Notes under the pieces: model-generated
What the model was told of the DNA's origin: nothing
The model's input: the letters and a program-made list of their open reading frames with translations, nothing else
Databases searched by the model: none
From: a virus
Virus record (IMG/VR): IMGVR_UViG_3300030333_007172
Location: 19,194 to 83,193 of that record
Strand: one strand, 5' to 3'
Length of the DNA stretch: 64,000 nucleotides
Shown here: piece after piece, positions 34,791 to 63,683 of the stretch
Position numbering within the stretch: position 1 is the first letter of the stretch
Layout: every line of letters starts with the position of its first letter
Translations under genes and position numbers: made by a program

Positions 34791-35222
34791 TTAGTCTTCG
34801 ATTTCCACTACTTCAATTTCAAAATTAAGATCTTTGCCTGCTAATGGATGATTCATATCCAATGTTACATTAGTGTCTGTGTGTTCTGTAATTGTGGCAA
34901 TAAATGTTCCTGCTGGTCCAGTTCCTTGGATTGCTTGACCAACGTTAAAAACAAAATCTGGACCAAAAGCTTCTTTAGGTACAACTTGAGTTGCTTCTGG
35001 GTTGTGTGCCCCATACGCATTTTCAGAAGTTAAAGAAATTTCTTTAGTTTCTCCCTCTGTCATACCTACAATTGCTTTTTCAAAAGCCGGCAATAGTTGA
35101 CTATTTCCCACTAAAAAACTAAGTGGAGTACCTCGTGCACGAGAACTATCAAACTCAGTACCATCCAACAAAGTACCGATGTAGTGAATTTTTACGTTGT
35201 TTCCAACTTCGACTGTTTTCAT
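34791..35222 (-). CDS. FKBP-type peptidyl-prolyl isomerase, SlyD-like
   Basis: A 143-residue SlyD-type FKBP. MKTVEVGNNVKIHYIGTLLDGTEFDSS opens the fold, the insert-in-flap chaperone segment lies at about 65-125, and DMNHPLAGKDLNFEI closes it. SlyD also has a His-rich tail, which is absent here. It folds proline-containing proteins. It is next to the Hsp20 gene, so this is a small chaperone set. Confidence 0.9.
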   Translation of the reverse strand: MKTVEVGNNVKIHYIGTLLDGTEFDSSRARGTPLSFLVGNSQLLPAFEKAIVGMTEGETKEISLTSENAYGAHNPEATQVVPKEAFGPDFVFNVGQAIQGTGPAGTFIATITEHTDTNVTLDMNHPLAGKDLNFEIEVVEIED

Positions 35223-35425: not shown

Positions 35426-35911
35426 TTAATTAATCTCTACTGTTCTTACAACGGGTTCAGCATTTGTTGGTACAACTTTTGGCAATCTTAAAGTAAGAAT
35501 TCCGTTTTCAAAAGTTCCAGTTACCGAGGTATCATCAAGATTGTCTCCTAAACGAAACGAGCGCGCAAAAGCAGAGCGCTTAACTTCGCGCTTTACATAT
35601 TGTGCATCTTCTACGTCTGAACGTTGATTACTTTCAGCTTTAATAGTCAAAACTCCCTCAGCAATTTCTACTGAAACATCTTCTTTGGTTAAGCCTGGAA
35701 TTGCGGCCTCAATTTCAACTCTATCATCGAAATTTACAACATTGCACTTAGGATAAGAACCTTGTACAAAAAAGTCTTGTCCAAACTCCTGATGTAGTGT
35801 GGGGAACATATCACCCATCAAACTATTAAAAATTTCATCAAATGGAGTTAGGAATTCCCGCTTGGAAAGTGTACGCGCGGGATGCGCACTTCTACGAATA
35901 ATATTGCTCAT
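35426..35911 (-). CDS. Hsp20-family small heat-shock protein
   Basis: A 161-residue alpha-crystallin-domain protein. The domain spans about 50-150, with the conserved IEAAIPGLTKEDVSVEI and GTFENGILTLRLPK (the A-x-x-x-n-GvL motif). It prevents protein aggregation. It has its own promoter (35978-36005). Phage-coded small heat-shock proteins are common in T4-like cyanophages. Confidence 0.9.
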   Translation of the reverse strand: MSNIIRRSAHPARTLSKREFLTPFDEIFNSLMGDMFPTLHQEFGQDFFVQGSYPKCNVVNFDDRVEIEAAIPGLTKEDVSVEIAEGVLTIKAESNQRSDVEDAQYVKREVKRSAFARSFRLGDNLDDTSVTGTFENGILTLRLPKVVPTNAEPVVRTVEIN

Positions 35912-36338: not shown

Positions 36339-36729
36339 TGGTGGAGACGGCGGGAGTCGAACCCGCGTCCACAATAAGTCCAATTTTAGTCATTCACAAG
36401 TTTATTTGATTTTTGCTGAGTAACTTAATCTCATGCCGTCCGTTCTTTAAAAATCAAAAAAAACGGGGTGATTAATCAACTGGCAAGCTAAACCCTCACC
36501 CTATCCCAATTGATATGTTTTGGTAGTTATAAGATACCGCTTACTACCCTGTTGCAGTACCTGCTCAAATTGGATAGAAGGCTTTGAGCGGCCTCCCGAT
36601 TAAGCTGCTAAAGCAGCTGCTTCGAAATGGTTGTTGTTATTTGCAACTATTGTTTTTGAACTGTTAAGGTCGTATCTAACCTACTTGCACTATTCCTCTT
36701 TCTTACTCTGTCGAATCCTTTTCGTCCCC
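36339..36729 (-). ncRNA. ssrA: Transfer-messenger RNA (tmRNA)
   Basis: The minus strand begins GGGGACGAAAAGGATTCGAC and ends with a TPsiC arm (GGGTTCGACTCCCGCC), acceptor pairing and encoded CCA, giving a tRNA-Ala-like structure of about 391 bases. A resume codon GCA opens the tag reading frame: ANNNNHFEAAALAA, then TAA. The tail AAALAA fits ClpXP degradation signals. tmRNA rescues stalled ribosomes with SmpB; no smpB gene is seen here, so host SmpB would be used. The 5-prime and 3-prime ends pair GGGGACG with CGUCUCC (one G-U). Confidence 0.95.
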
Positions 36730-41341: not shown

Positions 41342-42488
41342 TTTTCTTCATCTCCTTGAGTCTAAGTACAAGCGCTTGAGCTAATTTTGCCGCTCTTTGC
41401 TCTTGCAATTTTCGCTCTTCGTTTACATAAGCTTTATCGCCTTTCTTTTCGCCGCGACCTTTTCCACTATGTTTAAGATCATCATCTTTCTTAGTGGTAT
41501 AGTCTTTTTCACCCTTGTGAGTCTTAGAATCATCACCTTTAGACTCGCCATCATCTTTTTTGCCAGGAGGATGACCGTGACCTTCAGCTAGCGATGCGTT
41601 TGTGACTTGAATGTCTTCTGCTGCAACGTTTTCAAGAATTGTTCCATCTGCTAACTTCATGTCGTAATGTGTAACTCGACCAAGTTCTTTATTATAATTA
41701 TGATTGACTGCTTCAGCCATTTCAACGGAGCCGTTATAAGAAACGCCACCGTGATGCACGCAATAATGATTAGGAGCAAAAACATCATCTTCAGTCTCTT
41801 CTAAAGGACGTACTCTTCGCGCAGAATCACGACCAGCAACTCTGTCGGGGGAGTCTTTTCTGCTCTTCTCATCAATTTGTTCATCTTCCTCTAAAGCACC
41901 ACCAGATTTAAGAGCTTTTTCTTCTTCATCTTCTCTTTTTTTAGTGCCTGTAAAATCGGCTGGATCTTTTTCAGAATCGGCCTCGTTTAATTTATTAAGG
42001 GAAAAACTAAAACCCCATTTTTCTGTAAGAAGAGTGTTAATCTCTCCATTTTTCCAATCTTTTGTAGACATCGAACTTTTAACTCCTTTTTGTAAATGTT
42101 CATTATAAATAGTACCTTTTATACTGTCTTCCCAATCTCTAAAAACTATTGACGCTTGGTAAGCTTCAATTTCCATATTTCTTAGATGAGAATCTTTCTG
42201 CGCATACCCTTGTTCACCCATCCCTTCTGTATTATCAAAATCTCCGTTACATTTTTGTGTATGGTGCATTAACTCGTGCGCCAACGAGCGCATAATATCT
42301 TTAGGGTGTCGATTTGTAGTATAAAGAGTGATGGCTTCATTCTCCGGATCGTAGAAACCAGTTTTGCCTAACGGATTAGCCGCGTTCTCAGCATCTTGTT
42401 TCAGAAATAACTTTGGTGGACGGTCAAAGCCCATTTTTTCTTTTGCAAAAGGCATAAATTGTTTAATTAGGGCTTTTAAATCGTTCAT
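41334..42488 (-). CDS. HEXXH metallopeptidase with long disordered tail
   Basis: A 384-residue protein. SLAHELMHHTQ (H71, E72, H75) is an HEXXH zinc site, and NMEIEAYQA (E106/E108) may supply the third ligand. From about residue 165 the chain is acidic and Lys/Asp-rich, with one beta-rich patch (HYCVHHGGVSY). Candidate LxE sites such as LLTE and SLAE occur within it. The substrate is unknown. A maturation or injection role is possible. Confidence 0.6.
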   Translation of the reverse strand: MNDLKALIKQFMPFAKEKMGFDRPPKLFLKQDAENAANPLGKTGFYDPENEAITLYTTNRHPKDIMRSLAHELMHHTQKCNGDFDNTEGMGEQGYAQKDSHLRNMEIEAYQASIVFRDWEDSIKGTIYNEHLQKGVKSSMSTKDWKNGEINTLLTEKWGFSFSLNKLNEADSEKDPADFTGTKKREDEEEKALKSGGALEEDEQIDEKSRKDSPDRVAGRDSARRVRPLEETEDDVFAPNHYCVHHGGVSYNGSVEMAEAVNHNYNKELGRVTHYDMKLADGTILENVAAEDIQVTNASLAEGHGHPPGKKDDGESKGDDSKTHKGEKDYTTKKDDDLKHSGKGRGEKKGDKAYVNEERKLQEQRAAKLAQALVLRLKEMKKNG

Positions 42489-43375
42489 GTGTCTAAAAAT
42501 ACCTCTTTTTGATTATCAGAGTACCAGATATACTCTAAATAGTTCCCAAATGGGTCTTTTACATAAACTCCAGTTGTTCCATCACGATGTTCTACTCTAA
42601 TGCCTTCATGAAGGTCTAAATTCTCTTTTTTCTCAACTAAAACTCCAAAATGTTGATGTGGATAATGTTTTTCATCAATTAGTGCAATATTTGTGTTTGA
42701 AAGACGCATTCTAATGTATTTTGGGTCTCGAAAAGTAACTTTTCCGTTTAATTGACGAGTATACCACTCTTCAGCTTCTTTCAAATTACTTACACGTAAC
42801 GCTATGTGATCAACACAGCTTTTTTTAGTGTTTTCAAAACAATTATGATGTTGCCAACATCGAGGTTCGTACAGTTCTGCGCCACCAACTGTAATTTCTT
42901 CTAAATTATCTACTTTTCTGTGTGTGTAATATGCATCTGCTCCGCAAACGGTACAAACAGCCGCACATTTCTCGATTTTAGTGGCCCAAGGAAACATTAC
43001 TTGTACTTCATCAAAAATATTACCACTAGCAGATAACTCAAGTGAAGATACTACAATGGTTTTACCAATTTTAAATAAATTGATTAAAGTTTTACCAATT
43101 CCAGGAATCATAAAGGCTTCATCAACAGCAATAACGTCATATTGCTCTAAATTACAAATTTTAGCTAAATCTTGACCACTTTCTACTAATTTTGCTTTAA
43201 TTTTTGCACCAGAATGTGTACAAATTTCAGATTCTGTGTATCGATTATCAATTTTAGGTTTAAATGCGACAATTGAACGTTTTTGATATTTATATCGTTC
43301 TAACTTTGCTAGCATTTTTGTTGTTTTAGACCCAAACATAGGGCCGCAGTAAATAATAAACTCTGGATTTTGCAT
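42485..43375 (-). CDS. tdk: Thymidine kinase fused to glyoxalase/VOC domain
   Basis: A 296-residue protein. Residues 1-190 are a type II thymidine kinase: P-loop GPMFGSKT (11-18), DEAF (about 90-93), CAVCTVCGADA and the lasso and second zinc Cys (CWQHHNC). Residues about 195-290 are a VOC/glyoxalase domain (VDHIALRVSNLKEAEEWY; GTTGVYVKDPFGNYLEYIW). Thymidine kinase makes dTMP from thymidine. The VOC partner is unexpected. The stop overlaps the next gene start as ATGA. Confidence 0.9.
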   Translation of the reverse strand: MQNPEFIIYCGPMFGSKTTKMLAKLERYKYQKRSIVAFKPKIDNRYTESEICTHSGAKIKAKLVESGQDLAKICNLEQYDVIAVDEAFMIPGIGKTLINLFKIGKTIVVSSLELSASGNIFDEVQVMFPWATKIEKCAAVCTVCGADAYYTHRKVDNLEEITVGGAELYEPRCWQHHNCFENTKKSCVDHIALRVSNLKEAEEWYTRQLNGKVTFRDPKYIRMRLSNTNIALIDEKHYPHQHFGVLVEKKENLDLHEGIRVEHRDGTTGVYVKDPFGNYLEYIWYSDNQKEVFLDT

Positions 43376-44873: not shown

Positions 44874-45563
44874 CTAACACCTAATTTCTTTTAGTCGGTA
44901 CTCGTTTTCAAATTTCTCCACTTTATAAATTACTAGTTCAAAATTATCAGGTTTAATTGAATTAATTTTTTTGTTATCGCAAACATGATTTAGAACATCT
45001 TGAATATTTTTATCAGAATCTTCGTAATACTCTATGCGAGAAACATTAGATTTGCCGTTTGGCATAATTTTGTTACTTAAAAGTCTGGCAATTATTTTAC
45101 CTTTTGACTTTCCTTCAGAGGCCATCGGTCGAACATTATTGCTATCTATGCCAATTTCATCTAAATATTTCATTATTGGCATTATAGCATCACCACGGCG
45201 CGCTGTTAAAATATATGTTTTAGAGTTCTGAGGAAAGTTACGCATTATGTCTGTTACAGCGGTAATTTCTTCAGGCTCTTTAACAACAGCAAAATCACTT
45301 AAATCAATTTGATATCCAAGTTTTTGCAAATCTTTTACAGGGTCAAACGTTTCAATGCCTTCTTTTGCTGCAGCTTGGGTCATATACTCTTCAAATTCTT
45401 TTTGGTCACTCAGGGTCGCCGCCGAACCGTCAGGCGCTTTCACACGCGTCTCAGAGCGTGTATGGGCTATTGTCTCATCAAAGTCAAAGATGCGAAGCGT
45501 GGTGATAGGTTCTTCTAGCTCTTCTCGTACAAATTCTCGCCAATTTTCAAGTAGGAGTTTCAC
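44874..45563 (-). CDS. HAD-family enzyme with capsid-targeting N-terminus
   Basis: A 229-residue HAD protein. The preferred start is GTG at 45563, giving (M)KLLLENWREFVREELEEP, the same opening as three genes further upstream; the codon overlaps the preceding stop as GTGA. IFDFDETIAHT is the catalytic DxD motif, and TYILTARRGDAI is motif II. The N-terminal peptide resembles T4 capsid-targeting sequences, cut at an LxE-like site. Enzyme substrate unknown. Confidence 0.7.
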   Translation of the reverse strand: MKLLLENWREFVREELEEPITTLRIFDFDETIAHTRSETRVKAPDGSAATLSDQKEFEEYMTQAAAKEGIETFDPVKDLQKLGYQIDLSDFAVVKEPEEITAVTDIMRNFPQNSKTYILTARRGDAIMPIMKYLDEIGIDSNNVRPMASEGKSKGKIIARLLSNKIMPNGKSNVSRIEYYEDSDKNIQDVLNHVCDNKKINSIKPDNFELVIYKVEKFENEYRLKEIRC

Positions 45564-45649
45564 CTGCAATTGCCTTCACATTTTTTAGCATTCCAACAAC
45601 TACAACTGCAGCTGCAACAACATTGTCCAAAACAAATTTCTGCTAACAT
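45560..45649 (-). CDS. 29-residue cysteine-rich peptide
   Basis: The frame begins at 45649 (MLAEICFGQC) and has nine Cys in 29 residues, at positions 6, 10, 11, 12, 14, 16, 18, 24 and 28. The stop overlaps the HAD GTG start (GTGA), a pattern typical of translational coupling. It could be metallothionein-like or a disulfide-rich peptide. No ribosome site is obvious. It lies 22 bases after the hydrolase stop. Confidence 0.5.
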   Translation of the reverse strand: MLAEICFGQCCCSCSCSCWNAKKCEGNCR

Positions 45650-45671
45650 TAATGCATAATGACGTAAGCTT

Positions 45672-46253
45672 TTAAGTATTAGCTTCATTTACAAGTTTCT
45701 CCTTTTGTTCCTTAGATAGTTCAACTCCAGACTCTGGGCTATTTTTATATTTTAAAATATTAACGTGCTTTGCTCCGTCAAACACAAAAAGCGGCATGCC
45801 TGTTCTTAAAGATAATTCAGCGCTGTGCCATAAAGGTACGAATTCGTCCGCTGTTCCATGTATGATAACACCATTAGAGAATGTTGGATTTTCAATGCCG
45901 TTAACCCACCCACGCTTCCATGCCGGCGCTACAAAAGTTACCCTAGGCTGATGGGCTGATTTAGATAGTGCAGCCAGCGCAACGGCTCCTCCGCGACTGT
46001 AAGCTATAAGATGTTCTGGCTTCACATTGTTAAGAAATTCGACAGCTTCAATTATATCTTCGTGATCGTGGTTAATTCCTCGGTCGTTTGTAAATTGAGG
46101 ACAACCTTCTTCGCCGGCTTCCCACTGATTGTCGTTGGGCGGAGTATCACACTGTGGAGATACGCGCATTTGTGTTGGATTCATTTTATACCCGTGAAAT
46201 GCGGCCGGGGCTTCTTTTAAATACTTTCGCCAATTTTCAAATAAGTGTTTCAT
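45672..46253 (-). CDS. Alpha/beta-hydrolase with capsid-targeting N-terminus
   Basis: A 193-residue protein starting at 46253 (MKHLFENWRKYLKEAPAAFH); upstream in-frame codons overlap the previous gene. The leader ends YLKE/A, a good match to the T4 prohead protease consensus. IAYSRGGAVALAAL gives a GxSxGG-type nucleophile, GTADEFVP the acid, and GAKHVNI the base of a Ser-Asp-His triad. It could be an esterase or peptidase delivered into the host. Substrate unknown. Confidence 0.75.
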   Translation of the reverse strand: MKHLFENWRKYLKEAPAAFHGYKMNPTQMRVSPQCDTPPNDNQWEAGEEGCPQFTNDRGINHDHEDIIEAVEFLNNVKPEHLIAYSRGGAVALAALSKSAHQPRVTFVAPAWKRGWVNGIENPTFSNGVIIHGTADEFVPLWHSAELSLRTGMPLFVFDGAKHVNILKYKNSPESGVELSKEQKEKLVNEANT

Positions 46254-46692
46254 AAGTCTTTCCAAATATTTCTCGACCGACGACTCCGTAATCACCGGGA
46301 CCATATTGTACTAGATAGTCGCCCGGATCGCCTTGGAGTAAATCGTCTGACCAAGATACTTTTACCTGAAATGGTTCCGACATCTCTTTAGCGAATACTG
46401 GTATGTTCTTTTTGGAAGCTGTGCCGTCGCCTAAATCATCATATGTTTGTGCAAACTTTTCTGCAGGAATGGGCCACTGTTCACCTTCGGTGCCGGTCAT
46501 GATTGCATCGCCGGCTTTCGCACCAACCGGTCCCTCCTTGGTTTCGATAGTTTCATCAGCCTTAGCATATCTAAATTCTAGCGGAATAGGTTTTTTCGCA
46601 GTCTGAAACCCGTCTTGCGATAAATCCGGGTTGTCGTCTAATCCGATGGTCTCTGTCAAATACTTCCGCCAATTTTCAAATAAGTGTTTCAT
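46237..46692 (-). CDS. Unknown protein with capsid-targeting N-terminus
   Basis: A 151-residue protein. The first 14 residues (MKHLFENWRKYLTE) match those of its neighbour base for base over most of the coding repeat, and end LTE/T. The rest has a beta-rich core (GDAIMTGTEGEQWPI; PGDYLVQYGPGDYGVV). No family is recognised. It overlaps the hydrolase gene by 17 bases and the kinase gene by 4 (ATGA). Confidence 0.65.
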   Translation of the reverse strand: MKHLFENWRKYLTETIGLDDNPDLSQDGFQTAKKPIPLEFRYAKADETIETKEGPVGAKAGDAIMTGTEGEQWPIPAEKFAQTYDDLGDGTASKKNIPVFAKEMSEPFQVKVSWSDDLLQGDPGDYLVQYGPGDYGVVGREIFGKTYETLI

Positions 46693-47705
46693 TTAAACAT
46701 AAATAGTCCAAGATCTGTAATCACAAAGTCTTTTGTGCCAGGACGCACCATCACATTTCCTGAGTGAACATCTTTGGGTTCCCACTTATGATCTCGCATA
46801 AAGTGCTTCATGGCACGAATTAGATTTTGGGCCTCTGGAAAGTTTCTTGTTACTTTATCTGTGTGTTTTCCATATTGACTATATGACGCATCGCCAGCGT
46901 GAATAGGTACAATTTGTTTATCAAAAAGTTCTTCGTACGCTTCAAGCAAAGTATTTTTTAGTGCCCATGGAAGTGAATCATAATATCCAGGATCTCGTTT
47001 TAAATATTTCATAGATTCTTCAACAGTTATATCAGCGAGTTTCTCGGGGGCTGATGTTTCTTCAATGCTTTTTTCCATAATTCTTTTAATAACTGCGTTT
47101 GGTACATTTTGTAAAATTTGGTTATAAACTTCTTGATTTCCTTGTCTTAATAACAAACTTTCGTAAAGTCCAATGCTTACTAATTCATAAACAGCTTCTG
47201 GGTCTTTTATTATTGTAGCATATTTTTTTTCACGTGGCAACTCTATATCATCAATATTTAATCGAAACAGATCTGACTTTACTCTGTCTGGCATGTTTTC
47301 GAGTAATTCCATAAATATAAAATAGTCTTTTACGGTTTCATGAATATTGTACACATCGGGCAGATACTTTGCCCACCGATCTTCAATTGAACTTTTGTTG
47401 TTCATAGCAAACTCGTAATTTTGAAATTCTCGTTTTGATAATCGAGGACCTCCGTAAAGCGCCTTGGTCACAACTTTTAACGCTAACCTTTCGCCGGTCT
47501 CTTTGTTTTCAACTAAGTAAACATCGCCCATCTGACCGCTTCCTAATTTCTTATCGAGATAGTATCCAAGTTCTGAGACTGTTTCTTTAATGCGTTCATA
47601 CTTTTCAGCTTCTACTTTATTCCAAGTTTTACCTTCCATGTCAAACATAGGTCCATCAAGATTCTCTAATAGATACTTTCGCCAATTTTCAAGTATAAGC
47701 TTCAT
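46689..47705 (-). CDS. Protein kinase with capsid-targeting N-terminus
   Basis: A 338-residue protein. After the leader MKLILENWRKYLLE (LLE/N) come a Gly loop GSGQMG (55-60), K77 in LALKVV, a catalytic loop KDVHSGNV with D312 and N317, and a metal-binding DLG (D331). This is a Ser/Thr-kinase-like fold. It has about 160 residues between the hinge and catalytic loop and ends seven residues after DLG, so the usual activation segment and C-lobe are absent or rearranged. If packaged and injected, it could phosphorylate host proteins at once, as T7 gp0.7 does after synthesis. Confidence 0.75.
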   Translation of the reverse strand: MKLILENWRKYLLENLDGPMFDMEGKTWNKVEAEKYERIKETVSELGYYLDKKLGSGQMGDVYLVENKETGERLALKVVTKALYGGPRLSKREFQNYEFAMNNKSSIEDRWAKYLPDVYNIHETVKDYFIFMELLENMPDRVKSDLFRLNIDDIELPREKKYATIIKDPEAVYELVSIGLYESLLLRQGNQEVYNQILQNVPNAVIKRIMEKSIEETSAPEKLADITVEESMKYLKRDPGYYDSLPWALKNTLLEAYEELFDKQIVPIHAGDASYSQYGKHTDKVTRNFPEAQNLIRAMKHFMRDHKWEPKDVHSGNVMVRPGTKDFVITDLGLFMFK

Positions 47706-48181: not shown

Positions 48182-50632
48182 CTAAATAAAACGGCTCCAG
48201 CGTTCTCCAAGATCTTTTAGGTTATCCCAGCTGCGTTCTTTTTCAGGTGCTGCATCCGTAAGGTTTACATTGTTTCTTTGCGCTTCTTCACGTAGAGCGT
48301 CCAAGAATGCCTTTGCAATTTCGTCTTCATCATCCATCTCACCGGTAACTAATTCATAGAACTGGTCTACGGCGCTGTCAGGAGAGTCTGAGTCGACTTT
48401 GAAAGAGATTTGGTAGCGAATTTCTCCGCCAACTTCTACGGCGCTTTTATCGCGAATAGAGAGCCAATATTCACTGTCTGTGTCTTCTCTTGCGGGCCCA
48501 GTAAGAAAGCCTCTAAGACGAAGCGCGAATTCTCTTCTGTCAATTAAATCGAAAAGAATTCTCGGCTCAATACCTAAAGCTTCTGGATCAAAATCATATT
48601 CAATCGTGGCCCATGACTCGTAAGACTCTTCATAATCTCCATCATAATCCACATACCAATAATATGAACCAACCTCATTATTTTCAATTTTTCTAGCGAG
48701 ATCCATGTATACGCCACCTGACATCACACCTTCGCGCTTAAAGAACTGTTCCGCAATTTCTTGAAACGCATTGCGTTTATCATCAATAGCTGTATCAACA
48801 TTTGAACACATCTCATTAAATCCACTAGGATCAAAAACGATTTCTCCTGCAGCAATATCTGGATGTTGGAGATTTATATTACATCCCCATCGAACTATAT
48901 TGTCGCTTTTCTTGTTTATAAATCCAGAATCAGCATCAAGAAGATCTCCATAGTATTCATTAATTTCGGCTGCTACATACATTCCAGTTGGATACGAATT
49001 AGGAAGCTGTGTCCATTCATCAAGATCCCAATCAATGATTACCCTTGCAGAAGTATCAATATAAAATCCGCCATCATAATCTTCTTCAACGCGAAAATCT
49101 ACTTCTGTAGCTGCATAACGTTCGTTCCATTCGTTTTTGATATCTTCGCACTCTTCTTCCCACTGTGCACTTATATCACCTATCCAGTCGGCAGGTAGAT
49201 TGTCTTCGGTCTCTGTGTTTTGTCGTACTTGACCTGTAAAGTTTTCTTTTGGTTCACCTGTTAATTGCATTAACAATTCTTGGCGGCCTGAAAAATAACG
49301 AGTATCTTCATGAGAACCACCAAAAATCATAAAGTCATCTAAATCGATTTTACCACCAGAGCGAGGCAAGTTAGAAATTGTTTCTTCTTGATTTTCTCTC
49401 GCCCAACTTACGATCCTGTTAGTTATACCAGGGATTCCAGCGCCATAGACGCGTTTCTCGGGCACTGCAATTTCAGTTCCATCATCTTCACCGGCATCAT
49501 ATTTTTCCCAGTCGAAAAAGCGCATTTGGCGAAGTCTAAGGCGAGAAACTGGTTTCAAATCTGTTGACAATCCAATATGACTTCCGCGAGTTTCATCAGC
49601 AAATATTTCACCTTCTTGAATTTCTTGCTCAGCACTGTCAATATTACTTGTGTTGGTAGCGCTTAAAAGCTCGTCAGTTTCAACAACGTATGCTACAGCA
49701 CCGTGTCCTTGAGCTTCTGCTACTGCACATTTGTAATAACTTTGCATGCCTCCACCACGACTTGGTGGAGTGTGACACGAAATAATGTTATTAAAATCAG
49801 CCATTCGTAAAACGTCTACTGGATCTCGTGTAATAATAATAGAGTATTGGTCATTTCTAAGGTTATCAATATTATCTTTGATATATCCTGCATTTTTTTG
49901 CCAATATTCTGTTAAATCTTTAAGTATCTTTGTGTTTTCGGGCATAGCACGTGCTTTAACATCTCCTGCGTACATATCTAATTGAGAATGTAATTGATAG
50001 TATCTTTTTACTTCGCTCTCATCTAAAGCTTCTTGAACGTAATCTCCAGTAAATTGTCTTGGAGACGTCACGTGCTGTAATCCGTTTTCATGGGCCCATG
50101 ATAATACTTTTGTGTTTAGATCGTTTAGTTTTGAAGCTAAATCATATAATTTTGCAAGAAACTTACCAATTTTCATTTGAATTTTACGCGTTCTGTCAGC
50201 TTTCCATTCATTACCCATTATTCTTGCAGTCGAAGCTTCAATTGATTGGTCTTTAAACTCTCTGGTGCCAGAAACCATACCTTTTTCCCAATCTATATCG
50301 TATCCCATTTCAGATGTGAGGAAACTTACAAACTGTCCAAGCTCTGATTCTGTTTCAAGAGTTGGAAAATCAATAACGACTCGTGTTTTTCCATCAAAAA
50401 GCTTGTTAAAAGCAAGATCTTCGCCTTTCATATCTTCTAAGACATCTTCAATTGCTGCATATTCGCCCTGTGTAATTTCGCGAAGGACTGTTTCTTCCAT
50501 GGGAACACAATTGGGAACCATGCGGTCCCCTTTTTTCTTCATGCCAACTTGTTTATAGCCGTCCCAGCATTTTTCTTGCAGAACTTGTAATAATTTTGTA
50601 GCTTGATTTAAAATTTCTTCATCAGAACGCAT
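48182..50632 (-). CDS. Large protein of unknown function
   Basis: An 816-residue acidic protein. Near residue 20, CWDGYKQVGMKKKGDRMVPNC is a conserved phage Cys/Lys block, followed by an amphipathic segment (EETVLREITQGEYAAIEDVL). From about 264 to 322 it has IIITRDPVDVLRMADFNNIISCHT and later YYKCAVAEAQGHGAVAYVV, a block known from other phages but not functionally defined. Several acidic and aromatic repeats follow. It may be packaged, as its neighbours appear to be, or act as an enzyme on host nucleic acid. I cannot name it. Confidence 0.6.
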   Translation of the reverse strand: MRSDEEILNQATKLLQVLQEKCWDGYKQVGMKKKGDRMVPNCVPMEETVLREITQGEYAAIEDVLEDMKGEDLAFNKLFDGKTRVVIDFPTLETESELGQFVSFLTSEMGYDIDWEKGMVSGTREFKDQSIEASTARIMGNEWKADRTRKIQMKIGKFLAKLYDLASKLNDLNTKVLSWAHENGLQHVTSPRQFTGDYVQEALDESEVKRYYQLHSQLDMYAGDVKARAMPENTKILKDLTEYWQKNAGYIKDNIDNLRNDQYSIIITRDPVDVLRMADFNNIISCHTPPSRGGGMQSYYKCAVAEAQGHGAVAYVVETDELLSATNTSNIDSAEQEIQEGEIFADETRGSHIGLSTDLKPVSRLRLRQMRFFDWEKYDAGEDDGTEIAVPEKRVYGAGIPGITNRIVSWARENQEETISNLPRSGGKIDLDDFMIFGGSHEDTRYFSGRQELLMQLTGEPKENFTGQVRQNTETEDNLPADWIGDISAQWEEECEDIKNEWNERYAATEVDFRVEEDYDGGFYIDTSARVIIDWDLDEWTQLPNSYPTGMYVAAEINEYYGDLLDADSGFINKKSDNIVRWGCNINLQHPDIAAGEIVFDPSGFNEMCSNVDTAIDDKRNAFQEIAEQFFKREGVMSGGVYMDLARKIENNEVGSYYWYVDYDGDYEESYESWATIEYDFDPEALGIEPRILFDLIDRREFALRLRGFLTGPAREDTDSEYWLSIRDKSAVEVGGEIRYQISFKVDSDSPDSAVDQFYELVTGEMDDEDEIAKAFLDALREEAQRNNVNLTDAAPEKERSWDNLKDLGERWSRFI

Positions 50633-55820: not shown

Positions 55821-56083
55821 GTTACACTAGCGTTACATAACAGTGTATACATTTGTATACATTTAACGTAACAATGCCGCGCAGTACAGCGATTATTTGT
55901 TAACAAAAGTTTAACGCACCTGTATATGTTTTGATACATATATGTTTTCATACGTATACATTTTGATATGTATATTTTATTATACTCTCGGCCAATAACG
56001 TTACATTATGTTACATTAAGGCGAACCTTAACTAAGTTGTTGATATTATTAACGTTACAGATCCGCCTGTAACACAGGTTACA
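55821..56083. repeat. Cluster of GTATAC and GTTACA/TGTAAC motifs in the spacer
   Basis: GTATAC occurs at 55845, 55855 and 55954 here, and at 55702 and 55715 in the microprotein. GTTACA or TGTAAC occurs at 55821, 55832, 56000, 56010, 56054, 56068 and 56078, plus one at 55692. Most are followed by AT-rich runs such as ATTTAA. Such short repeats are typical of binding sites at an origin or a regulatory hub. About 450 bases (55860-56309) hold no convincing gene. Confidence 0.55.
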
Positions 56084-56140
56084 CGCCCACAATGCTGTCG
56101 CATGCTTACGTAACGCCGTGAATATGTCAAAAGATTGTGC

Positions 56141-56169
56141 TTGACAGTGCGTGTGTGTCTATGTATAAG
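56141..56169 (+). promoter_or_regulatory. Plus-strand sigma-70-type promoter
   Basis: TTGACA (56141-56146), 17 bases, TATAAG (56164-56169) on the plus strand, against the direction of every gene nearby. Transcripts would run toward 56310 and read antisense into the right-hand genes, or form a short RNA. The sequence following has no plausible gene. Confidence 0.5.
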
Positions 56170-56309
56170 GCCCCAACGCAACAACCAACAAAAAACAAAA
56201 CATTATTACGGCATAAACAAACGCAGTTTCCATACACTAACTAGCACAATACCACCACATTCCACTCTGATCCACTTTATACCACTTTTATACACAATGA
56301 AACAACACG

Positions 56310-56537
56310 TTACTCCTTATCTTTCATAGAGGGAAATAACTTATCCGCTCTAACCTTCTTGTATTCACCTTTACCATCAATAAAGATATAGTAATCATAA
56401 AAGTAATCATCAACTAACACTTCCAATACTAGAGCCTGATATGTATCATCCTTTAATGCATTTATATCTGGGAAGGGAATATATGTTACCCAATCATCTA
56501 TAGAATACTTGTATTCTTTTGTATCAGTCTCGGCCAT
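56310..56537 (-). CDS. SH3-like small protein
   Basis: A 75-residue protein: YKYSIDDWVTYIPFPDINAL and later YYIFIDGKGEYKKVRADKLF, a diverged version of the same beta-barrel family. It is the first gene to the right of the spacer and overlaps its neighbour by one base. Function unknown. Confidence 0.55.
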   Translation of the reverse strand: MAETDTKEYKYSIDDWVTYIPFPDINALKDDTYQALVLEVLVDDYFYDYYIFIDGKGEYKKVRADKLFPSMKDKE

Positions 56538-56872
56538 TAATATCCATCGGTATCCGACGTTACACGCAGATCCAAAACTCCCGGCGGAACTTCGCCAGAC
56601 ATGATACCGCCATGCTTCGCGATAACAAGTGATACAGTTTTAGATGGTACATAACCATAAACTGTTTTAGTCGGGTCATCTGCGACCTCTGCGTATTGGA
56701 TTAACATCTCCTCATATTGAGACGGATAACCAACCTCCACCATGCGATAAGGACCGTGCTCATCGCGTGGCTCGCAATAATGTGTCGGTCCTGCTTGCAC
56801 GCTCATAGTGAAGCCATCTGCACATTCAACGCGCGATCTCTTCTTCATTGCTCCGAACAAGTTACTAAACAT
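56537..56872 (-). CDS. Small protein, unknown
   Basis: A 111-residue protein, MFSNLFGAMKKRSRVECADG, with a mid-protein Tyr-rich beta region (YRMVEVGYPSQYEEMLIQYA). It overlaps the SWIM gene by 8 bases. Function unknown. Confidence 0.5.
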   Translation of the reverse strand: MFSNLFGAMKKRSRVECADGFTMSVQAGPTHYCEPRDEHGPYRMVEVGYPSQYEEMLIQYAEVADDPTKTVYGYVPSKTVSLVIAKHGGIMSGEVPPGVLDLRVTSDTDGY

Positions 56873-57182
56873 CTTTTACCTCCTTCTTGATATTCTCGAT
56901 GTGTTTACATTTGCGCCGCCAGCCAAAGCCGGGACACGTGCAGGTATAAGCGCCCGCCTTCGCTGTGACTGTGTATTCGTTGCCCTTGCTACCCTTGACT
57001 CGCCAGGAGCCAGCAGAGGCGTCTGACGGGCTCTCACGATGTTTAACAACCATATACTTAGGAAGGTCATCGAACGTGGTGTCAGAAGGCACAGGAATCC
57101 ATGTGCCACCGCTGATCGCGTATCTCTGTCCACTGCCTGCGGTCGCCAGCATAGGCGGCCATTCTACTTCTACAGGGTTCAT
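56865..57182 (-). CDS. SWIM zinc-finger-like protein
   Basis: A 105-residue protein. YTCTCPGFGWRRKCKHIEN has the CxC...CxH pattern of a SWIM finger (C81, C83, C92, H94). SWIM domains bind DNA or protein. It overlaps the next gene by 4 bases. The G+C-rich codon use differs from the left part of the window. Confidence 0.65.
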   Translation of the reverse strand: MNPVEVEWPPMLATAGSGQRYAISGGTWIPVPSDTTFDDLPKYMVVKHRESPSDASAGSWRVKGSKGNEYTVTAKAGAYTCTCPGFGWRRKCKHIENIKKEVKDV

Positions 57183-57376
57183 GCGTCCACCGCTGGCATA
57201 AGCTGACAGTAAACGACGAGCATTAAATCCTGTGCTGCCTTTACGCTGGTCTTGTCATCACTGAGGGACGCTGTGTCTTTAATCTGTTGATACAGGGCCA
57301 GACTCGCGACCACATTTTCACATGCGAACTGACTTTGCTCCATTGGGGTTGATCCTGATACATCTTGATATTGCAT
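57179..57376 (-). CDS. Small protein, unknown
   Basis: A 65-residue protein starting at 57376 (MQYQDVSGSTPMEQSQFACE) after AGGAGAAGAG. A TATAAT box lies upstream at 57404-57399 with an extended TGT. The mostly helical product overlaps the SWIM gene by four bases. Function unknown. Confidence 0.6.
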   Translation of the reverse strand: MQYQDVSGSTPMEQSQFACENVVASLALYQQIKDTASLSDDKTSVKAAQDLMLVVYCQLMPAVDA

Positions 57377-57413
57377 TACTCTTCTCCTGTTAATACATAT
57401 TATAACATAATCC

Positions 57414-57662
57414 CTAACGACCATTTGTCAAGGTTATGTGAAGTGGTTCCAAATACATGCTATGGAACTGTAGCGATACGCCGTTAGTCATAAGCACGAT
57501 CCATACGTTTGTCCTTTCTGGCTCTCTCGATGAATAATGTACCATCGCACGCACAGGCGCAACGAGGATCCCGCTCCGCGATGGCGGCATGCGATCATCG
57601 TGCGTTGTATCTTTAATACGCACGAGATCACCGATCTTAAATGTCCTCTGGATCGTATCCAT
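57414..57662 (-). CDS. SH3-like small protein (KIGDLV type)
   Basis: An 82-residue protein. TFKIGDLVRIKDTTHDDRMP, then GILVAPVRAMVHYSSREPER and a NVWIVLMTNG turn. This is a full example of the family, with a basic loop between strands. Function unknown. Confidence 0.6.
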   Translation of the reverse strand: MDTIQRTFKIGDLVRIKDTTHDDRMPPSRSGILVAPVRAMVHYSSREPERTNVWIVLMTNGVSLQFHSMYLEPLHITLTNGR

Positions 57663-57918
57663 CTTTAGGTCCGACGTTGTAAAACCATTCGTCTACTGTG
57701 AACTCAGGCGCAAACTCGTCCATCTCCTCAAGTGTCAGCCTGTATGGACGTTGAAGATCGTCGCTGAAGCTGTGAACGATACCCTTCAATAGTTTAAGCA
57801 TGCGATCAATCTGCTCCCGCTCGGCCAACTCTGCCGCAATCTCGGCGGCCTCCTCTTTCGCTCGCTTGTCTGCTTCTTTTCTGGCGCGTAACGCGCACAA
57901 ACTAACTAACTCACCCAT
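57637..57918 (-). CDS. Charged helical protein, unknown
   Basis: A 93-residue protein beginning MGELVSLCALRARKEADKRA, with a Lys/Ala/Glu coiled-coil-like stretch (KEEAAEIAAELAEREQI), then an acidic C-terminus. It overlaps the SH3-like gene by 26 bases. Function unknown. Confidence 0.55.
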   Translation of the reverse strand: MGELVSLCALRARKEADKRAKEEAAEIAAELAEREQIDRMLKLLKGIVHSFSDDLQRPYRLTLEEMDEFAPEFTVDEWFYNVGPKDGYDPEDI

Positions 57919-57928
57919 AGTTTAACCC

Positions 57929-58231
57929 CTAAAACGGCATTTCAAAGCTGAAAGGGCTGGCCTCCCAGACTTTCGTATGCATCACACACACGCCTGGAAC
58001 TCGCTTTGCGCGTCCGACGTGACAGGACGTGGTTTGAGAGTGATAACCTCCTCCACCTGCTGTATAATCGCCCACAATGCACACACCAGCATGGGATCGC
58101 TGTCCAATCTTGAGCCCATAGCTAAACAAAGCACCCGCGCCATCTGCAATAAGCGTATTGCGATGATTACGCGCGGTATTCCCTTCTGCCCATGCCTTGA
58201 CCACTTGATCGTTTGTCATAATCTTAAACAT
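57929..58231 (-). CDS. Small conserved-type phage protein, unknown
   Basis: A 100-residue protein with MTNDQVVKAWAEGNTARNHR near the start and GDYTAGGGGYHSQTTSCHVG in the middle, followed by KVWEASPF. The two motifs recur in phages and plasmids, but I know of no function. It ends one base before the 270-residue gene. Confidence 0.55.
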   Translation of the reverse strand: MFKIMTNDQVVKAWAEGNTARNHRNTLIADGAGALFSYGLKIGQRSHAGVCIVGDYTAGGGGYHSQTTSCHVGRAKRVPGVCVMHTKVWEASPFSFEMPF

Positions 58232-59044
58232 TTATACCCTCGCCTTCTTAATGTGTCGCTCTTCAATGAGCATGGTTTCGACTGCCCCCATAGGCAGAAC
58301 TTTGTACATCTTTGCACCCTTGGCCGCACTCACAACTTGTTCGGTTGTGGAGATCACAACGCAGGGTCGGTTTGCTGCCGCTCTACGCGCCTTTGAGGGC
58401 GCTCCTGGGCGCATCATGACCAAAGACCCTGCTGCGTACTTGGGAGCGTCCAGAGTGGCAGCGATAACCTTTTGTGCATACTTGTTATGCACCATCTTGT
58501 TGAACTCTCGCTGTGAGGGCACAAAGGATGGATCGGTCAAGATTGACGTAGCCAGCCGATTGAAATAACCAGCATGCTGGTAGTACCCGGCAGCGATCTT
58601 GGCAACATCACGCGCAGAAGCCCCGCGAGCACCCGGCTCATCGTAACGGCTACTCCACAAAGCCCGATCACGAAGCGATTCATCATTATTACGCTCCTCA
58701 ATCTGCCCAAGGATCTCACGTTGACGCGCGGAAAGCTCCCGGCCAGTCATGACTTGGCTCTGTAGGCTGTTGATAAAGCCGCGATCCCATGACTTTTCCT
58801 CTGTACGCTCACACACAGCGTTCAGACGCTCAAGCATGGCTTGACCCTTGGAGGCATTGGCCGCGAGGTTCTCAGGACTATAACGCTCCTCAAGCTGCTT
58901 TACACAGCGTGCTCGGCCTTGGGTCAGCTTGCCGCTGCGATTGTAGTAGCCAAGCAGCGACTCAGCGAACGTGCGATCACGAGAGCCGCACGCAGGGTTG
59001 TCGATGATAGCCTGAAGCCGGTCGCGATAAGTAAGACGAGCCAT
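58232..59044 (-). CDS. Repeat protein with helical modules and SH3-like end
   Basis: A 270-residue protein. Two helical modules look alike: SRDRTFAESLLGYYNRSGKL and SWDRGFINSLQSQVMTGREL, followed by a third helix-rich part. The C-terminal 70 residues read YAAGSLVMMRPGAPSKARRA, then CVVISTTEQVV, like the KVGDLV family. Promoter P1 (59076-59129) stands just upstream. Function unknown; nucleic-acid binding is possible. Confidence 0.6.
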   Translation of the reverse strand: MARLTYRDRLQAIIDNPACGSRDRTFAESLLGYYNRSGKLTQGRARCVKQLEERYSPENLAANASKGQAMLERLNAVCERTEEKSWDRGFINSLQSQVMTGRELSARQREILGQIEERNNDESLRDRALWSSRYDEPGARGASARDVAKIAAGYYQHAGYFNRLATSILTDPSFVPSQREFNKMVHNKYAQKVIAATLDAPKYAAGSLVMMRPGAPSKARRAAANRPCVVISTTEQVVSAAKGAKMYKVLPMGAVETMLIEERHIKKARV

Positions 59045-59075
59045 GTGTAGAACCTCCTTCGTTCTTTACACAGTA

Positions 59076-59129
59076 AATATATCACATCTGAGTTAAACAA
59101 TCAACTAAATCTTGTCAAGAGAATGTCAA
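59076..59129 (-). promoter_or_regulatory. Early-type promoter P1 with TTGACA tandem
   Basis: On the minus strand: TTGACA (59129-59124), five bases, TTGACA (59118-59113), eight bases, TTGATT (59104-59099), 17 bases, TATATT (59081-59076). The two distal hexamers are spaced by eleven bases centre to centre, one helical turn. It drives the repeat-protein gene. The distal copy overlaps the gene ending at 59126. Confidence 0.7.
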
Positions 59130-59428
59130 ATGTCCTCGACATCCTTGCATTTCTCTCTTTCAAGCTCCGCAATGTCCTCGGCCAAGTCCTCAAGCGTCAA
59201 CTTGCGAGTTTTACGCAGCTTGTTAGCCGCTCGATCGAGGCGTCCCCACCGACGAGACTTAGGGGGATGCTCGCATAGGTGGAGATGCTCGATTCCCAGG
59301 GCTGTGAGGCGTCTGAGGCTGTTCTGAGTCACCTTGAGGGTGTCAGGCTTAGTCAAGACCGTCTCGCGCCCTGAGAGGCGTCCTGCGGCGTCTAACTCGA
59401 CGTGGGTTTTACTGACGTAATACTTCAT
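59126..59428 (-). CDS. Small protein of unknown function
   Basis: A 100-residue protein starting MKYYVSKTHVELDAAGRLSG, with a basic helical end (DRAANKLRKTRKLTLEDLAE). It lies just downstream of the metallopeptidase/VWA gene and would share promoter P2. Function unknown. Confidence 0.5.
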   Translation of the reverse strand: MKYYVSKTHVELDAAGRLSGRETVLTKPDTLKVTQNSLRRLTALGIEHLHLCEHPPKSRRWGRLDRAANKLRKTRKLTLEDLAEDIAELEREKCKDVEDI

Positions 59429-59440
59429 AATCTTCTCCGG

Positions 59441-60721
59441 TTAGTCGATGGCGATAACGCGCTCATTGGTCTGGAAGTAAGGACGCGCAGCGTGCTCCTT
59501 AGTGGTCATCCACATACGCTGACACCGGCTGTTAATAGGCTTAGGAGCCATCATATCGGTGAGAACGATGTGACCATCGAAGCCGCCCTCGTTGACGAAC
59601 TTCGTGGGAGCGTTGAAGCAAGTGCCTCCGCAAAGGACACGCTCGGTCTTGCGATTCTGCCCTTTCTTCCAGACATATACCTTGTTCTCGTCAACCCGAG
59701 TGTCGAAAGGCACGACGGTAAACTCGGCAAACTCGGCCAGCTTGTTCAACTCCGAGAAGAACGCAGTAAGCATGCGATCATCCACCGATCCGCTTTGGTC
59801 GATGCTCACAGCAATGCGAGCGTGACGGGTTACGCGCTTACCAGGGTGGATGCGAGGGAACCGCTTGTTGACACGTCGAGGCGTTGACCGGCGGTCAGAC
59901 CGCTGAGTGGTCTTAACAAAATAACGCATCACCTTGCGCCAATCCACATGAGTAGACAAGCGATCCATGATGTCCTTCCGCATGCCAGAAGACACGGATC
60001 CCCAGTTGTTAGCTTTCTGGGCCTCCTCTGCTGCCTCTTTGATAGCTTCCTTGAGACGCTCCTTGGCAATCTCCTCAACAGTGCCCTCGCCCTCGCCAAA
60101 CTCTTCGTGCGAGTCAAAGGAGTCCATGCCACCGAACGGATCGCCTTGTCCTGGCTGTCCTTCGCCGGGTTCACCTTGACCTTGGCCGCCCTCGCCTTCC
60201 TGCTCTTCCTGCTCCTTCTGCATGTCCTCCAGAGCGCCGAGATACCACTCGTAAGTCTTCCCGCTCGGGAGATGGGCGAATGGTCCCTCGCCAGGAACAC
60301 AGCCTTGCATGGGCTCACCAAGGGAGCCGGTTGGAGGGCCAGGATCGGACGCGCAGGGCAGCTTGCCCTTCATCTCTGGCAGTCCGTTGATGGCAAGGTC
60401 CATCGCGATATTATCAATGCGACGAATGCCCTCGGTCGGCTTGCGTCCGGTCACATGCTCAAAGATGATGTGATAGAACTCATGCATGAGCACGCCAAGT
60501 TTGTGCTCATCTTTTAACGCACCCATGAACTCAGGGTTATAAAGAAGCTCAAACTGAGCGCGTTCAGGATTGATGCGAACACCAGCAGTCGGCAGCGAAG
60601 TGGTGGGCGTCTTGTCAATCTTCCGCGACAGCGCGGCAAAGAAGGGCTCGCGCATGAGAAGACGCGCGGTGTGCATGTTCAGATTGAACGGGGCGGGCGT
60701 GATGGGTTTGTCGTCGGACAT
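59441..60721 (-). CDS. Metallopeptidase/VWA-like protein (DUF2201 type)
   Basis: A 426-residue protein starting at 60721 (MSDDKPITPAPFNLNM), after GGAGAG. VLMHEFYHIIFEH (H80, E81, H84) and NIAMDLAIN (D107) form a zinc site. A Gly/Gln/Glu-rich disordered middle part follows. The C-terminal VWA-like domain has SIDQSGSVDD (308-312 DQSGS). This layout (DUF2201) is usually next to a MoxR ATPase, as here, with which it is thought to work as a complex. Function in the phage is unknown. Confidence 0.85.
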   Translation of the reverse strand: MSDDKPITPAPFNLNMHTARLLMREPFFAALSRKIDKTPTTSLPTAGVRINPERAQFELLYNPEFMGALKDEHKLGVLMHEFYHIIFEHVTGRKPTEGIRRIDNIAMDLAINGLPEMKGKLPCASDPGPPTGSLGEPMQGCVPGEGPFAHLPSGKTYEWYLGALEDMQKEQEEQEGEGGQGQGEPGEGQPGQGDPFGGMDSFDSHEEFGEGEGTVEEIAKERLKEAIKEAAEEAQKANNWGSVSSGMRKDIMDRLSTHVDWRKVMRYFVKTTQRSDRRSTPRRVNKRFPRIHPGKRVTRHARIAVSIDQSGSVDDRMLTAFFSELNKLAEFAEFTVVPFDTRVDENKVYVWKKGQNRKTERVLCGGTCFNAPTKFVNEGGFDGHIVLTDMMAPKPINSRCQRMWMTTKEHAARPYFQTNERVIAID

Positions 60722-60744
60722 GAATCTCTCCTGATTACTATAGT

Positions 60745-60799
60745 AATATAGCACACTGCGAGGGAAATCGCAAGGCCAGGGTTGTCAAGAAGTTGTCAA
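60745..60799 (-). promoter_or_regulatory. Early-type promoter P2 with TTGACA tandem
   Basis: On the minus strand: TTGACA (60799-60794), five bases, TTGACA (60788-60783), nine bases, TTGCGA (60773-60768), 17 bases, TATATT (60750-60745). It drives the metallopeptidase/VWA gene. The -10 is preceded by TGC, an extended -10. Confidence 0.7.
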
Positions 60800-60802
60800 A
60801 GG

Positions 60803-61024
60803 TTATGACAAGTTGAACTCGCACCGGATCTGAGTCTCGGGAAACCATCGAGTTATTCCAGATGCGGGCTCTATAAGCCTGTAGAGGCGTCTAGTGCCCT
60901 TCTGAGTGCCATAGCGGGGCTTACCCGTGTCTGACACCTCAAGGACGAGCCAGGGGCGATTTACGCCCCCAGCTTCAGCGATGACATGAGGGACTACCAT
61001 GTCCCCCACTTTCAAGTCGCGCAT
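60803..61024 (-). CDS. SH3-like small protein (KVGDMV type)
   Basis: A 73-residue protein, MRDLKVGDMVVPHVIAEAGG, followed by a PWLVLEVSDTG strand, a basic loop and RWFPETQIRC. It is a clear family member. Its stop lies just before the tandem TTGACA element of P2, and it overlaps the AAA gene by one base. Confidence 0.6.
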   Translation of the reverse strand: MRDLKVGDMVVPHVIAEAGGVNRPWLVLEVSDTGKPRYGTQKGTRRLYRLIEPASGITRWFPETQIRCEFNLS

Positions 61025-62109
61025 TATTGCGAGCCTCCGAGAATCTCAACAAGGTGCTCGCTGACGCGGCGACCATCGGGAGTCTCAGCCTTGTGGAGCG
61101 CGACAACATTCTCAATGTTATCGGAGTCACCCAGGACGGTCCACAGCTTCATAGCAACCTCAGAGGGCAGACTGACGAAGTAAGCAGCGAGGTTAGCCAC
61201 CTGAGTCTCGTTGAGAGTCTCCTTGAAAACCTCGGATGCCTCCATCTTCTCGATCATGGCCGCATGGTCATTGATGCCCCACTGTGCAGTCTTCTCAATC
61301 TCGCCTGCGTCAAGCAAGTCCTCGACAGTCACCTGCCACTCGTACTTCTCAACGAAGTCCTTGAGCGAAACAGCAGCTTCAAAGCCAACAAACGCGGTTG
61401 CGAGGTTGAACAGCAGGTCACCGTTCTGGCTGTCCTGCGTGAAAACGCCCGTAGGAACTACGGTATCGTTGAACCGCTTCCAGCTACGACGGGAAGGGTA
61501 AACCTTGTTAGGCTCAAACTCACCTTGGTGCTCAAGGTGCTGACGGTTCTGATTGATAAAATCCCAAAGGATACCATCAACCTCGGACTTGGCCCAGTGC
61601 AGCCAATCTTCAGTGGAAGGCTCCACGTCGAAGACGGTCCAGCGGTCAAGCTCGGCAGGGTCCATCTCGCCCACCTGATATTGAGCGCCATGCTCGCCAC
61701 CGTTGACAGCAGCGAGGATCAGCGTACCAGGGTGCAAGTGCCACCCGTTGATCTTGCGGCTGTCGGTAAGCTCAAAGAGCCCCTGACGGACTTCCATAGT
61801 CGCGCGGTCAACCTCATCCAAGAAGAGGACCACAGCCTGCTCACAGGCAGTCACAAGCCAGTCTGGAGCGTTCCAAGTGGTAGCCTTGCGACCGCTGATA
61901 GTCGTCTCAGCGGTATCGGGCAGACCAAGAAGATCACCCTCGGTCATCTGAGAAGCGCGGCGCTCCACAACGGGGAGCCCAAGGCTATCGGCAGTCTGAT
62001 AGACCACCTGAGACTTACCGACACCGTGACGGCCGCGAATAAGGACCGGCAACTTAGCCGAGAGGATGTGAGGGACGGTAGCGAGAAAGGTCTTGAAGTC
62101 GACAGCCAT
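61024..62109 (-). CDS. MoxR-type AAA+ ATPase
   Basis: A 361-residue protein. Walker A GRHGVGKS (26-33), Walker B ending VVLFLDEVDRA (about 92-103), and conserved RASQMTEGDLLGLPD between them, all as in the MoxR/AAA_5 group. It forms a ring and remodels partners. The metallopeptidase/VWA gene two genes away is a likely partner. It has its own promoter P3. Confidence 0.85.
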   Translation of the reverse strand: MAVDFKTFLATVPHILSAKLPVLIRGRHGVGKSQVVYQTADSLGLPVVERRASQMTEGDLLGLPDTAETTISGRKATTWNAPDWLVTACEQAVVLFLDEVDRATMEVRQGLFELTDSRKINGWHLHPGTLILAAVNGGEHGAQYQVGEMDPAELDRWTVFDVEPSTEDWLHWAKSEVDGILWDFINQNRQHLEHQGEFEPNKVYPSRRSWKRFNDTVVPTGVFTQDSQNGDLLFNLATAFVGFEAAVSLKDFVEKYEWQVTVEDLLDAGEIEKTAQWGINDHAAMIEKMEASEVFKETLNETQVANLAAYFVSLPSEVAMKLWTVLGDSDNIENVVALHKAETPDGRRVSEHLVEILGGSQ

Positions 62110-62161
62110 GAAAGCCTCCAGGGGGTAGAATGGCGAGGGTGTATCCCCCGCTCACATTATA

Positions 62162-62228
62162 AATATAGCACAGGGGTGGTTAAAGGTCAAGGAAAATGTT
62201 GTCAAGAAAATGTCAAGAGATTTGTCAA
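62162..62228 (-). promoter_or_regulatory. Early-type promoter P3 with three TTGACA copies
   Basis: On the minus strand: TTGACA (62228-62223), six bases, TTGACA (62216-62211), five bases, TTGACA (62205-62200), nine bases, TTGACC (62190-62185), 17 bases, TATATT (62167-62162). It drives the MoxR-type gene. It is the only copy with a third distal hexamer. Confidence 0.75.
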
Positions 62229-62476
62229 GCGACTTCTGTGAACACGAACTCATCCCAATCAAAGATCATGTCAATCGCATCACACGCCACGTGGCCTTGC
62301 TCGGTCAGATCCCAGTCGCCCTCGGTGCGGGCAAACTCGCCATCGTCCCACGTAGCCAGACCAGCGAGCACAAGGACATCCACGATGTTAGGATCTGCCT
62401 GCAACTCGCCGCAGTGCATAAGAGTGTGCCACTCTTGTTCTGTCAAGCGAAACTCTTTAAGGTCTTGTACATTCAT
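62225..62476 (-). CDS. Small acidic protein, unknown
   Basis: An 83-residue acidic protein starting MNVQDLKEFRLTEQEWHTLM, with a predicted helix-turn region (MHCGELQADPNIVDVLVLAG) that resembles a small winged-helix fold. Its stop overlaps the distal TTGACA of P3. It would share promoter P4. Function unknown. Confidence 0.5.
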   Translation of the reverse strand: MNVQDLKEFRLTEQEWHTLMHCGELQADPNIVDVLVLAGLATWDDGEFARTEGDWDLTEQGHVACDAIDMIFDWDEFVFTEVA

Positions 62477-62496
62477 AATAGTTTAACTCCTCTATC

Positions 62497-62715
62497 TCAA
62501 CCGCAGCAGGGTGCTTGGGTCCAGTTGTGAAACTGCCAGTCAGAAATCAGACGGTCCTTACACAACGAATCGGTCCAGTTGTTCCATGCCTCGCGACGAG
62601 CGGGCCAATCGGGCTCGCCGTCCTGCTCAAAGTGCTCCTGAACCATAGGCAGGATGTCAGCTTCAAAGATGGCGCAGGCGTCTGCGTGAAGGATGGGGTT
62701 GGCAATGTCTCTCAT
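62497..62715 (-). CDS. Small acidic protein, unknown
   Basis: A 72-residue, Trp- and acid-rich protein (HADACAIFEADILPMVQEHF; WPARREAWNNWTDSLCKDRL) with three Cys. GGAGCCCACTG precedes the ATG. Promoter P4 stands just upstream. Function unknown. Confidence 0.55.
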   Translation of the reverse strand: MRDIANPILHADACAIFEADILPMVQEHFEQDGEPDWPARREAWNNWTDSLCKDRLISDWQFHNWTQAPCCG

Positions 62716-62745
62716 CAGTGGGCTCCTTTGCTCGATGATGATGGT

Positions 62746-62800
62746 ATTATCTCATAAGCGAGAGTGAAAGTCAACAGGAAAGTTGTCAAGAAAATGTCAA
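62746..62800 (-). promoter_or_regulatory. Early-type promoter P4 with TTGACA tandem
   Basis: On the minus strand: TTGACA (62800-62795), five bases, TTGACA (62789-62784), nine bases, TTGACT (62774-62769), 17 bases, GATAAT (62751-62746). It drives the two small acidic genes. The distal copy overlaps the stop of the zinc-knuckle gene. Confidence 0.7.
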
Positions 62801-63657: not shown

Positions 63658-63683
63658 AGATTTCTCTCCTTGATTACCCATAT

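Follow-up and report, generated by a model that had tools for sequence, protein, structure and literature searches.

A short N-terminal leader common to unrelated proteins of uncultured T4-like phages is very probably a capsid-targeting sequence

Four neighbouring genes of a marine T4-like virus raise the question of why an HAD-like protein, an alpha/beta-hydrolase-like protein, a PGDYG-domain protein and a Ser/Thr-kinase-like protein should all begin with variants of one peptide, K-[HL]-[LI]-[FL]-E-N-W-R-[KE]-[YF]-[LV]-x-E. The genes lie in a stretch of 64,000 nt (the window) covering positions 19,194-83,193 of record IMGVR_UViG_3300030333_007172, itself 98 kb long. The original prediction, made from the window alone, was that these otherwise unrelated proteins share a leader ending in VRE, LKE, LTE or LLE that directs them to the capsid. 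All four leaders were located on the minus strand with the endings as described, and the capsid-targeting interpretation was supported in every computational test run, including a match to four key residues of T4 IPIII. Positions are collected in Table 1.

Table 1. Features of the window, with positions counted from its first letter.
Feature	Gene or region	Leader or tag position	Strand	Leader or tag	Remarks
Leader-bearing cluster	44874..47705		-		four genes, overlapping or adjacent, same direction; ORF positions
HAD-like protein	44874-45563/45569	45522..45563	-	MKLLLENWREFVRE	start most likely GTG at 45563
Alpha/beta-hydrolase-like protein	45672-46253/46304	46212..46253	-	MKHLFENWRKYLKE	start most likely ATG at 46253
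PGDYG-domain protein	46237-46692	46651..46692	-	MKHLFENWRKYLTE	Pfam PGDYG, E=3.5e-19, firm
Ser/Thr-kinase-like protein	46689-47705	47664..47705	-	MKLILENWRKYLLE	
816-aa protein	48182..50632	48185..48211	-	LGERWSRFI	neighbour of the cluster; C-terminal tag, L-G-E directly before W
Thymidine-kinase-like protein	42485-43375				apparent fusion to a glyoxalase-like C-terminal domain (by eye)
tmRNA gene	36339-36729				predicted
HSP20-like protein	35426-35911				near the tmRNA gene (by eye)
FKBP-type isomerase-like protein	34791-35222				near the tmRNA gene (by eye)
Sugar-nucleotide/glycosyltransferase-looking genes	6868-25540				long run, judged from N-terminal sequences only
Region of rising G+C	56001-64000				about 0.32-0.41 to 0.50-0.54; many short genes, several with a VGDLV-type start

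Two gene starts are corrected here. The HAD-like protein most likely starts at a GTG, since its homologues begin at the same alignment column and other GTG-started leaders of the form VKLL.ENWRK exist, and the hydrolase-like protein most likely starts at an internal ATG rather than at 46304. The HAD-like protein has no significant Pfam match, and its assignment is based on an FDFDET motif and on the alignment of homologues, with weak additional support from a fold search. In its structure model the leader forms a separate low-confidence helix and the folded domain begins at residue 24; the model matches HAD phosphatases (the Legionella effectors Ceg4 and Lem4) at a TM of about 0.4, which is too weak for a substrate to be assigned. 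The matches of the hydrolase-like protein to Abhydrolase_6 (E=4.8e-4) and of the kinase-like protein to Pkinase (E=2.9e-5) both fall below the Pfam cut-off but are meaningful by E-value, and the latter protein also matches a PHROG of T7 gp0.7-type kinases (E=1.8e-4). The structure model of the kinase-like protein is of low confidence (pLDDT 54) and was therefore left out of the functional reading. PDB sequence searches with the HAD-, kinase- and hydrolase-like proteins returned weak matches or none.

Pattern scans of viral contigs indicate that the leader, whose general 14-residue form is MK-[LH]-[LI]-[FLM]-E-N-W-R-[KR]-[FY]-[LIV]-x-E (written out, MKLLLENWRKFLNE), is common in uncultured T4-like phages. 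An ATG-anchored pattern matched at least 119 stretches, as opposed to 11 for a codon-permuted decoy of the same composition, none of which was an in-frame gene start. When the start-codon anchor was omitted, all 77 distinct occurrences (79 newly fetched loci among the matches listed) were still N-terminal, and across seven genomes, i.e., six large leader-bearing phages and the window's own record, the looser motif E-x-W-[RK]-x-[FYW] occurred 37 times within the first 40 residues and nine times elsewhere. Run against 257 Gb of cellular genomes, the same pattern matched 80 stretches, of which five are in-frame genes; the full leader is in none of these stretches, whereas it was present in 131 of 149 from the viral contigs (among the matches listed). 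From its exclusively N-terminal position together with the decoy and cellular controls, the leader is a phage N-terminal element. A Mariprofundaceae MAG that contributed four contigs to the cellular scan was considered as a link to a host and rejected, the three contigs with a readable frame (L224, L249 and L289) carrying a different, dispersed repeat coding for MLYEKVPENWRRY that is unrelated to the leader. No cultured phage with the leader was found by short-peptide tblastn, a weak test with so short a query; immuto and Mel-JY01, the nearest relatives in culture among those examined, are without it, and none of six ENWR-type peptides was found as a phage leader in the literature searched, as judged from titles.

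The proteins behind the leader are highly diverse, which answers one of the checks proposed with the original prediction: once the leader was removed, 169 proteins fell into about 99 unrelated clusters at a BLAST threshold of E<1e-4 (among the matches listed). Their Pfam domains include NUDIX, protein kinase, zeta toxin, AAA_33, tRNA-ligase CPD, DUF192, M23 peptidase, RNase T, 5'-nucleotidase, SET, C5 DNA methylase and ATP-dependent DNA ligase; HAD proteins are also represented, and PHROGs add 5'-3' deoxyribonucleotidase, polynucleotide kinase and serine-threonine kinase. Several further proteins start with YHAT or YHYT motifs that by eye recall ADP-ribosyltransferases. That the four window proteins have their leader in common by accident or by common descent is ruled out for practical purposes, since the protein bodies are unrelated by BLAST and Pfam and neither the decoy nor the cellular controls yielded the full leader.

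A second alternative places the signal in the DNA, the 5' repeat being a recombination or regulatory element and the peptide its by-product. The leader DNA is indeed nearly identical in some genes of the window, and synonymous codon identity is slightly higher within contigs than between them (0.60 vs 0.53, permutation p=0.003), so that some recombinational spread of the leader is likely. Against a cassette of this kind, the frame and the residues it encodes are conserved but codon choice is free, with every one of the six Arg codons and six Leu codons in use at conserved residues, which indicates that selection acts on the peptide; moreover, the spacing between leader and cleavage site is kept in frame, and shorter leaders in the same enzyme families retain the peptide core alone (MLKKWKQFLSE on a HAD protein; MPMKYSWKGFLGE and MNKWKQFLTE in NUDIX proteins). 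A pure DNA repeat is rejected on the varying codons, and a DNA-level element in the broader sense is very improbable.

What the peptide may do is suggested by comparison with phage T4, in which capsid-targeting sequences of IPI, IPII, IPIII and Alt are cut by gp21 (Mullaney and Black; reviewed in PMC9026906). According to the same review, gp21 cleavage follows [LI]-x-E, and residues 4 and 7 of IPIII govern targeting while residues 8 and 10 govern processing. The N-terminus of IPII and IPIII is MKTYQEFIAE (AF158101), and IPIII residues 4, 7, 8 and 10 correspond to W, F/Y, L/I/V and E of the leader when the two peptides are aligned at their last E. The shorter HAD and NUDIX leaders cited above retain these core positions alone. 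The two peptides thus have the initial MK, the aromatic-x-x-F-[IL]-x-E spacing and the key residues in common, and both are short N-terminal peptides on unrelated proteins with an [LI]-x-E cleavage site, a predicted one in the leader, but the leader has 14 residues instead of the 10 of T4, with an added conserved E-N-W-R-[KR] block, and it precedes about 99 families over many phages, whereas T4 has four such proteins. Although the pattern first searched for did not include the L-x-E site, [LIV]-x-E stands at the exact expected offset in 135 of 176 leaders and one residue further on in 12 more, leaving about 16% without it at either place (all among the matches listed). Among the same matches, the W and F/Y positions are nearly invariant, and beyond the search pattern 156 of 176 leaders have [LIV] and 144 of 176 have E two positions further on. 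Taken with the genomic evidence that follows, these agreements in key residues and spacing make it most likely that the leader is a capsid-targeting sequence of T4 type, extended to 14 residues.

This reading is further supported by the genomes that encode the leader. Of the 18 leader-bearing records that reach 119 kb or more, 17 encode a protease of the gp21 family (PF03420, S77) (12/12 in a first set and 5/6 in a second, from which a 359-kb record was left out because its match is a 25-residue chance ORF), and this family exceeds the cut-off in one of 29 arbitrary viral contigs, which are smaller. The prohead protease gene that the original prediction had proposed to look for elsewhere in the genome is found in nearly all of the large relatives and is absent from the window's own 98-kb record, in which no S77 match and no capsid gene was identified. 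That record is probably a fragment: it carries gp25-like and baseplate-wedge proteins, and since the wedge matches T4-like isolates such as Flavobacterium phage immuto, the head genes probably lie on the missing part. The leader-bearing relatives have the head and tail genes of T4-like myoviruses, and an HK97-type capsid and protease system is ruled out by the lack of any PF05065 match in 30 leader-bearing records. In each of the nine gp23-like capsid proteins whose N-terminus is intact, L-L-[RK]-E is conserved directly before the mature domain, as part of a motif (LLENQA.[EQ]LL[RK]E) that takes the place of FGSFLTE in T4 gp23. In the head operon of one relative (G013), a leader protein, MKLLLEHWNRYLQE, is encoded two genes ahead of gp21, and the gene that follows gp21 carries WRTFLNE near its N-terminus.

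The leader is partly hydrophobic and predicted to be helical, as might be expected of a peptide directed to the tail, a membrane or another phage structure outside the head. Such a destination is improbable, given that the charged N-W-R-K core is unlike a signal peptide and that the E-terminated site, the four residues in common with the T4 sequences and the co-occurrence with S77 indicate the prohead. Outside T4, the nearest likeness is with the ejection-protein propeptides of phiKZ and SPN3US (PMC5694885), which are likewise N-terminal, removable and cut after glutamate by a gp21-like protease, and which in SPN3US include an identical N-terminal 15-mer on gp53 and gp54; however, these propeptides mostly exceed 100 residues, whereas the leader described here is short and common to many families.

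By analogy with T4, we infer that late in infection the leader would dock the newly made enzyme onto the prohead core, and that a gp21-type (S77) protease would then cut after [LIV]-x-E and remove the leader, so that the freed enzyme would remain in the head during DNA packaging. Our confidence in leader-directed targeting and cleavage is high. The timing is consistent with the distribution of an 8-mer, ACTATTTA, which looks like a late-promoter element of this phage group: in five of six large genomes (L140-L199) its frequency upstream of genes is raised 15-26-fold, and the genes it precedes include those for sheath, tube, a gp22-like scaffold and other structural proteins. Of 140 leader genes, 25 have it within 75 nt, as opposed to 1.4% of random windows (13-fold), a bias that late expression of many leader genes, during head building, would be expected to produce. 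In the window it occurs eight times against 4.3 expected, which is not a significant enrichment.

The last step would be ejection, in which enzyme and genome would enter the next host together, and the enzyme could act there ahead of phage gene expression. That injection is the purpose of most of the cargo is somewhat favoured, at clearly lower confidence than targeting and cleavage. Some of these proteins (DNA ligase, nucleotidase) are not obviously useful in the first minutes of an infection. The leader might instead be a core-assembly tag only, docking proteins to the prohead core whose cargo would mostly be structural or lost at maturation. Tag-like motifs do also occur on proteins of the head operon, gp22-like scaffolds of leader phages end in RW.FLAGI, and in T4 the core proteins gp22, gp67 and gp68 undergo degradation. 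Much of the cargo, however, consists of host-directed or nucleic-acid enzymes (kinase, SET, DNA methylase, RNase T, zeta-like) and not of scaffold, and the same arrangement delivers T4 Alt and IPs according to PMC9026906, so that a role in assembly alone appears unlikely, although it is the most serious of the alternatives. If delivery by the leader is correct, a sequence tag reveals which of the thousands of unknown proteins in uncultured T4-like phages are carried in the head and work from the onset of infection, and the capsid-targeting idea grows from four proteins in T4 to about a hundred families. Proteins for early host takeover or anti-defence could be sought among them, and the leader itself would be directly usable to load proteins into phage heads.

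A counterpart of the leader can be recognized at the other end of some proteins. W-[RKS]-x-[FY]-[LIV] lies within a few residues of the C-terminus in 23 of 2,229 ORFs, against 0.67 expected, and the 23 form seven clusters, the largest being a family of proteins near 800 aa, to which the 816-aa protein of the window belongs. The gene of this protein is separated from the leader cluster by a leaderless 4HBT thioesterase gene, and its three closest relatives retain the tag at their C-terminus and have leader genes next to them. Both ends can be marked in a single protein, as in one encoded at 169337-170818 of G014, which has ENWRKY at the N-terminus and ENWKKFIS at the C-terminus, and in an 1134-aa protein (L038) with WRSYLNE and WRKFIKE at its two ends. 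In 11 of the 23 cases an [LIV]-x-E stands no more than 14 residues ahead of the C-terminal tag, against a background of 14%, an excess that is suggestive at most since the proteins concerned are related to each other. It is tempting to propose that W-x-x-[FY]-[LIV] is a prohead-loading tag that may work at either end, with [LIV]-x-E after it at the N-terminus and often before it at the C-terminus, that would be removed from both by the same protease, and with which a large group of uncultured marine phages would load an interchangeable set of dozens of enzymes, each predicted to reach the host together with the DNA, a tentative generalization to which we give slightly less than an even chance. 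PMC9026906 offers a precedent in the C-terminal processing of T4 Alt, in which a C-terminal peptide is removed by the prohead protease; in contrast, a W-x-x-[FY]-[LIV] motif at both N- and C-termini is not described in the sections of that source drawn on here.

Two other motifs were observed at N-termini. That of the 816-aa protein, EKCWDGYKQVGMKKKGDRMVPNCVP, matches several PHROGs at very different profile positions, which suggests a second portable motif. Finally, two hypothetical proteins of Flavobacterium phage immuto (NC_055915; L295-L298) carry a different leader, MKKQILSEQF[KR]RMQ[FK]LAGIITES, possibly an equivalent tag in phages of Bacteroidetes.
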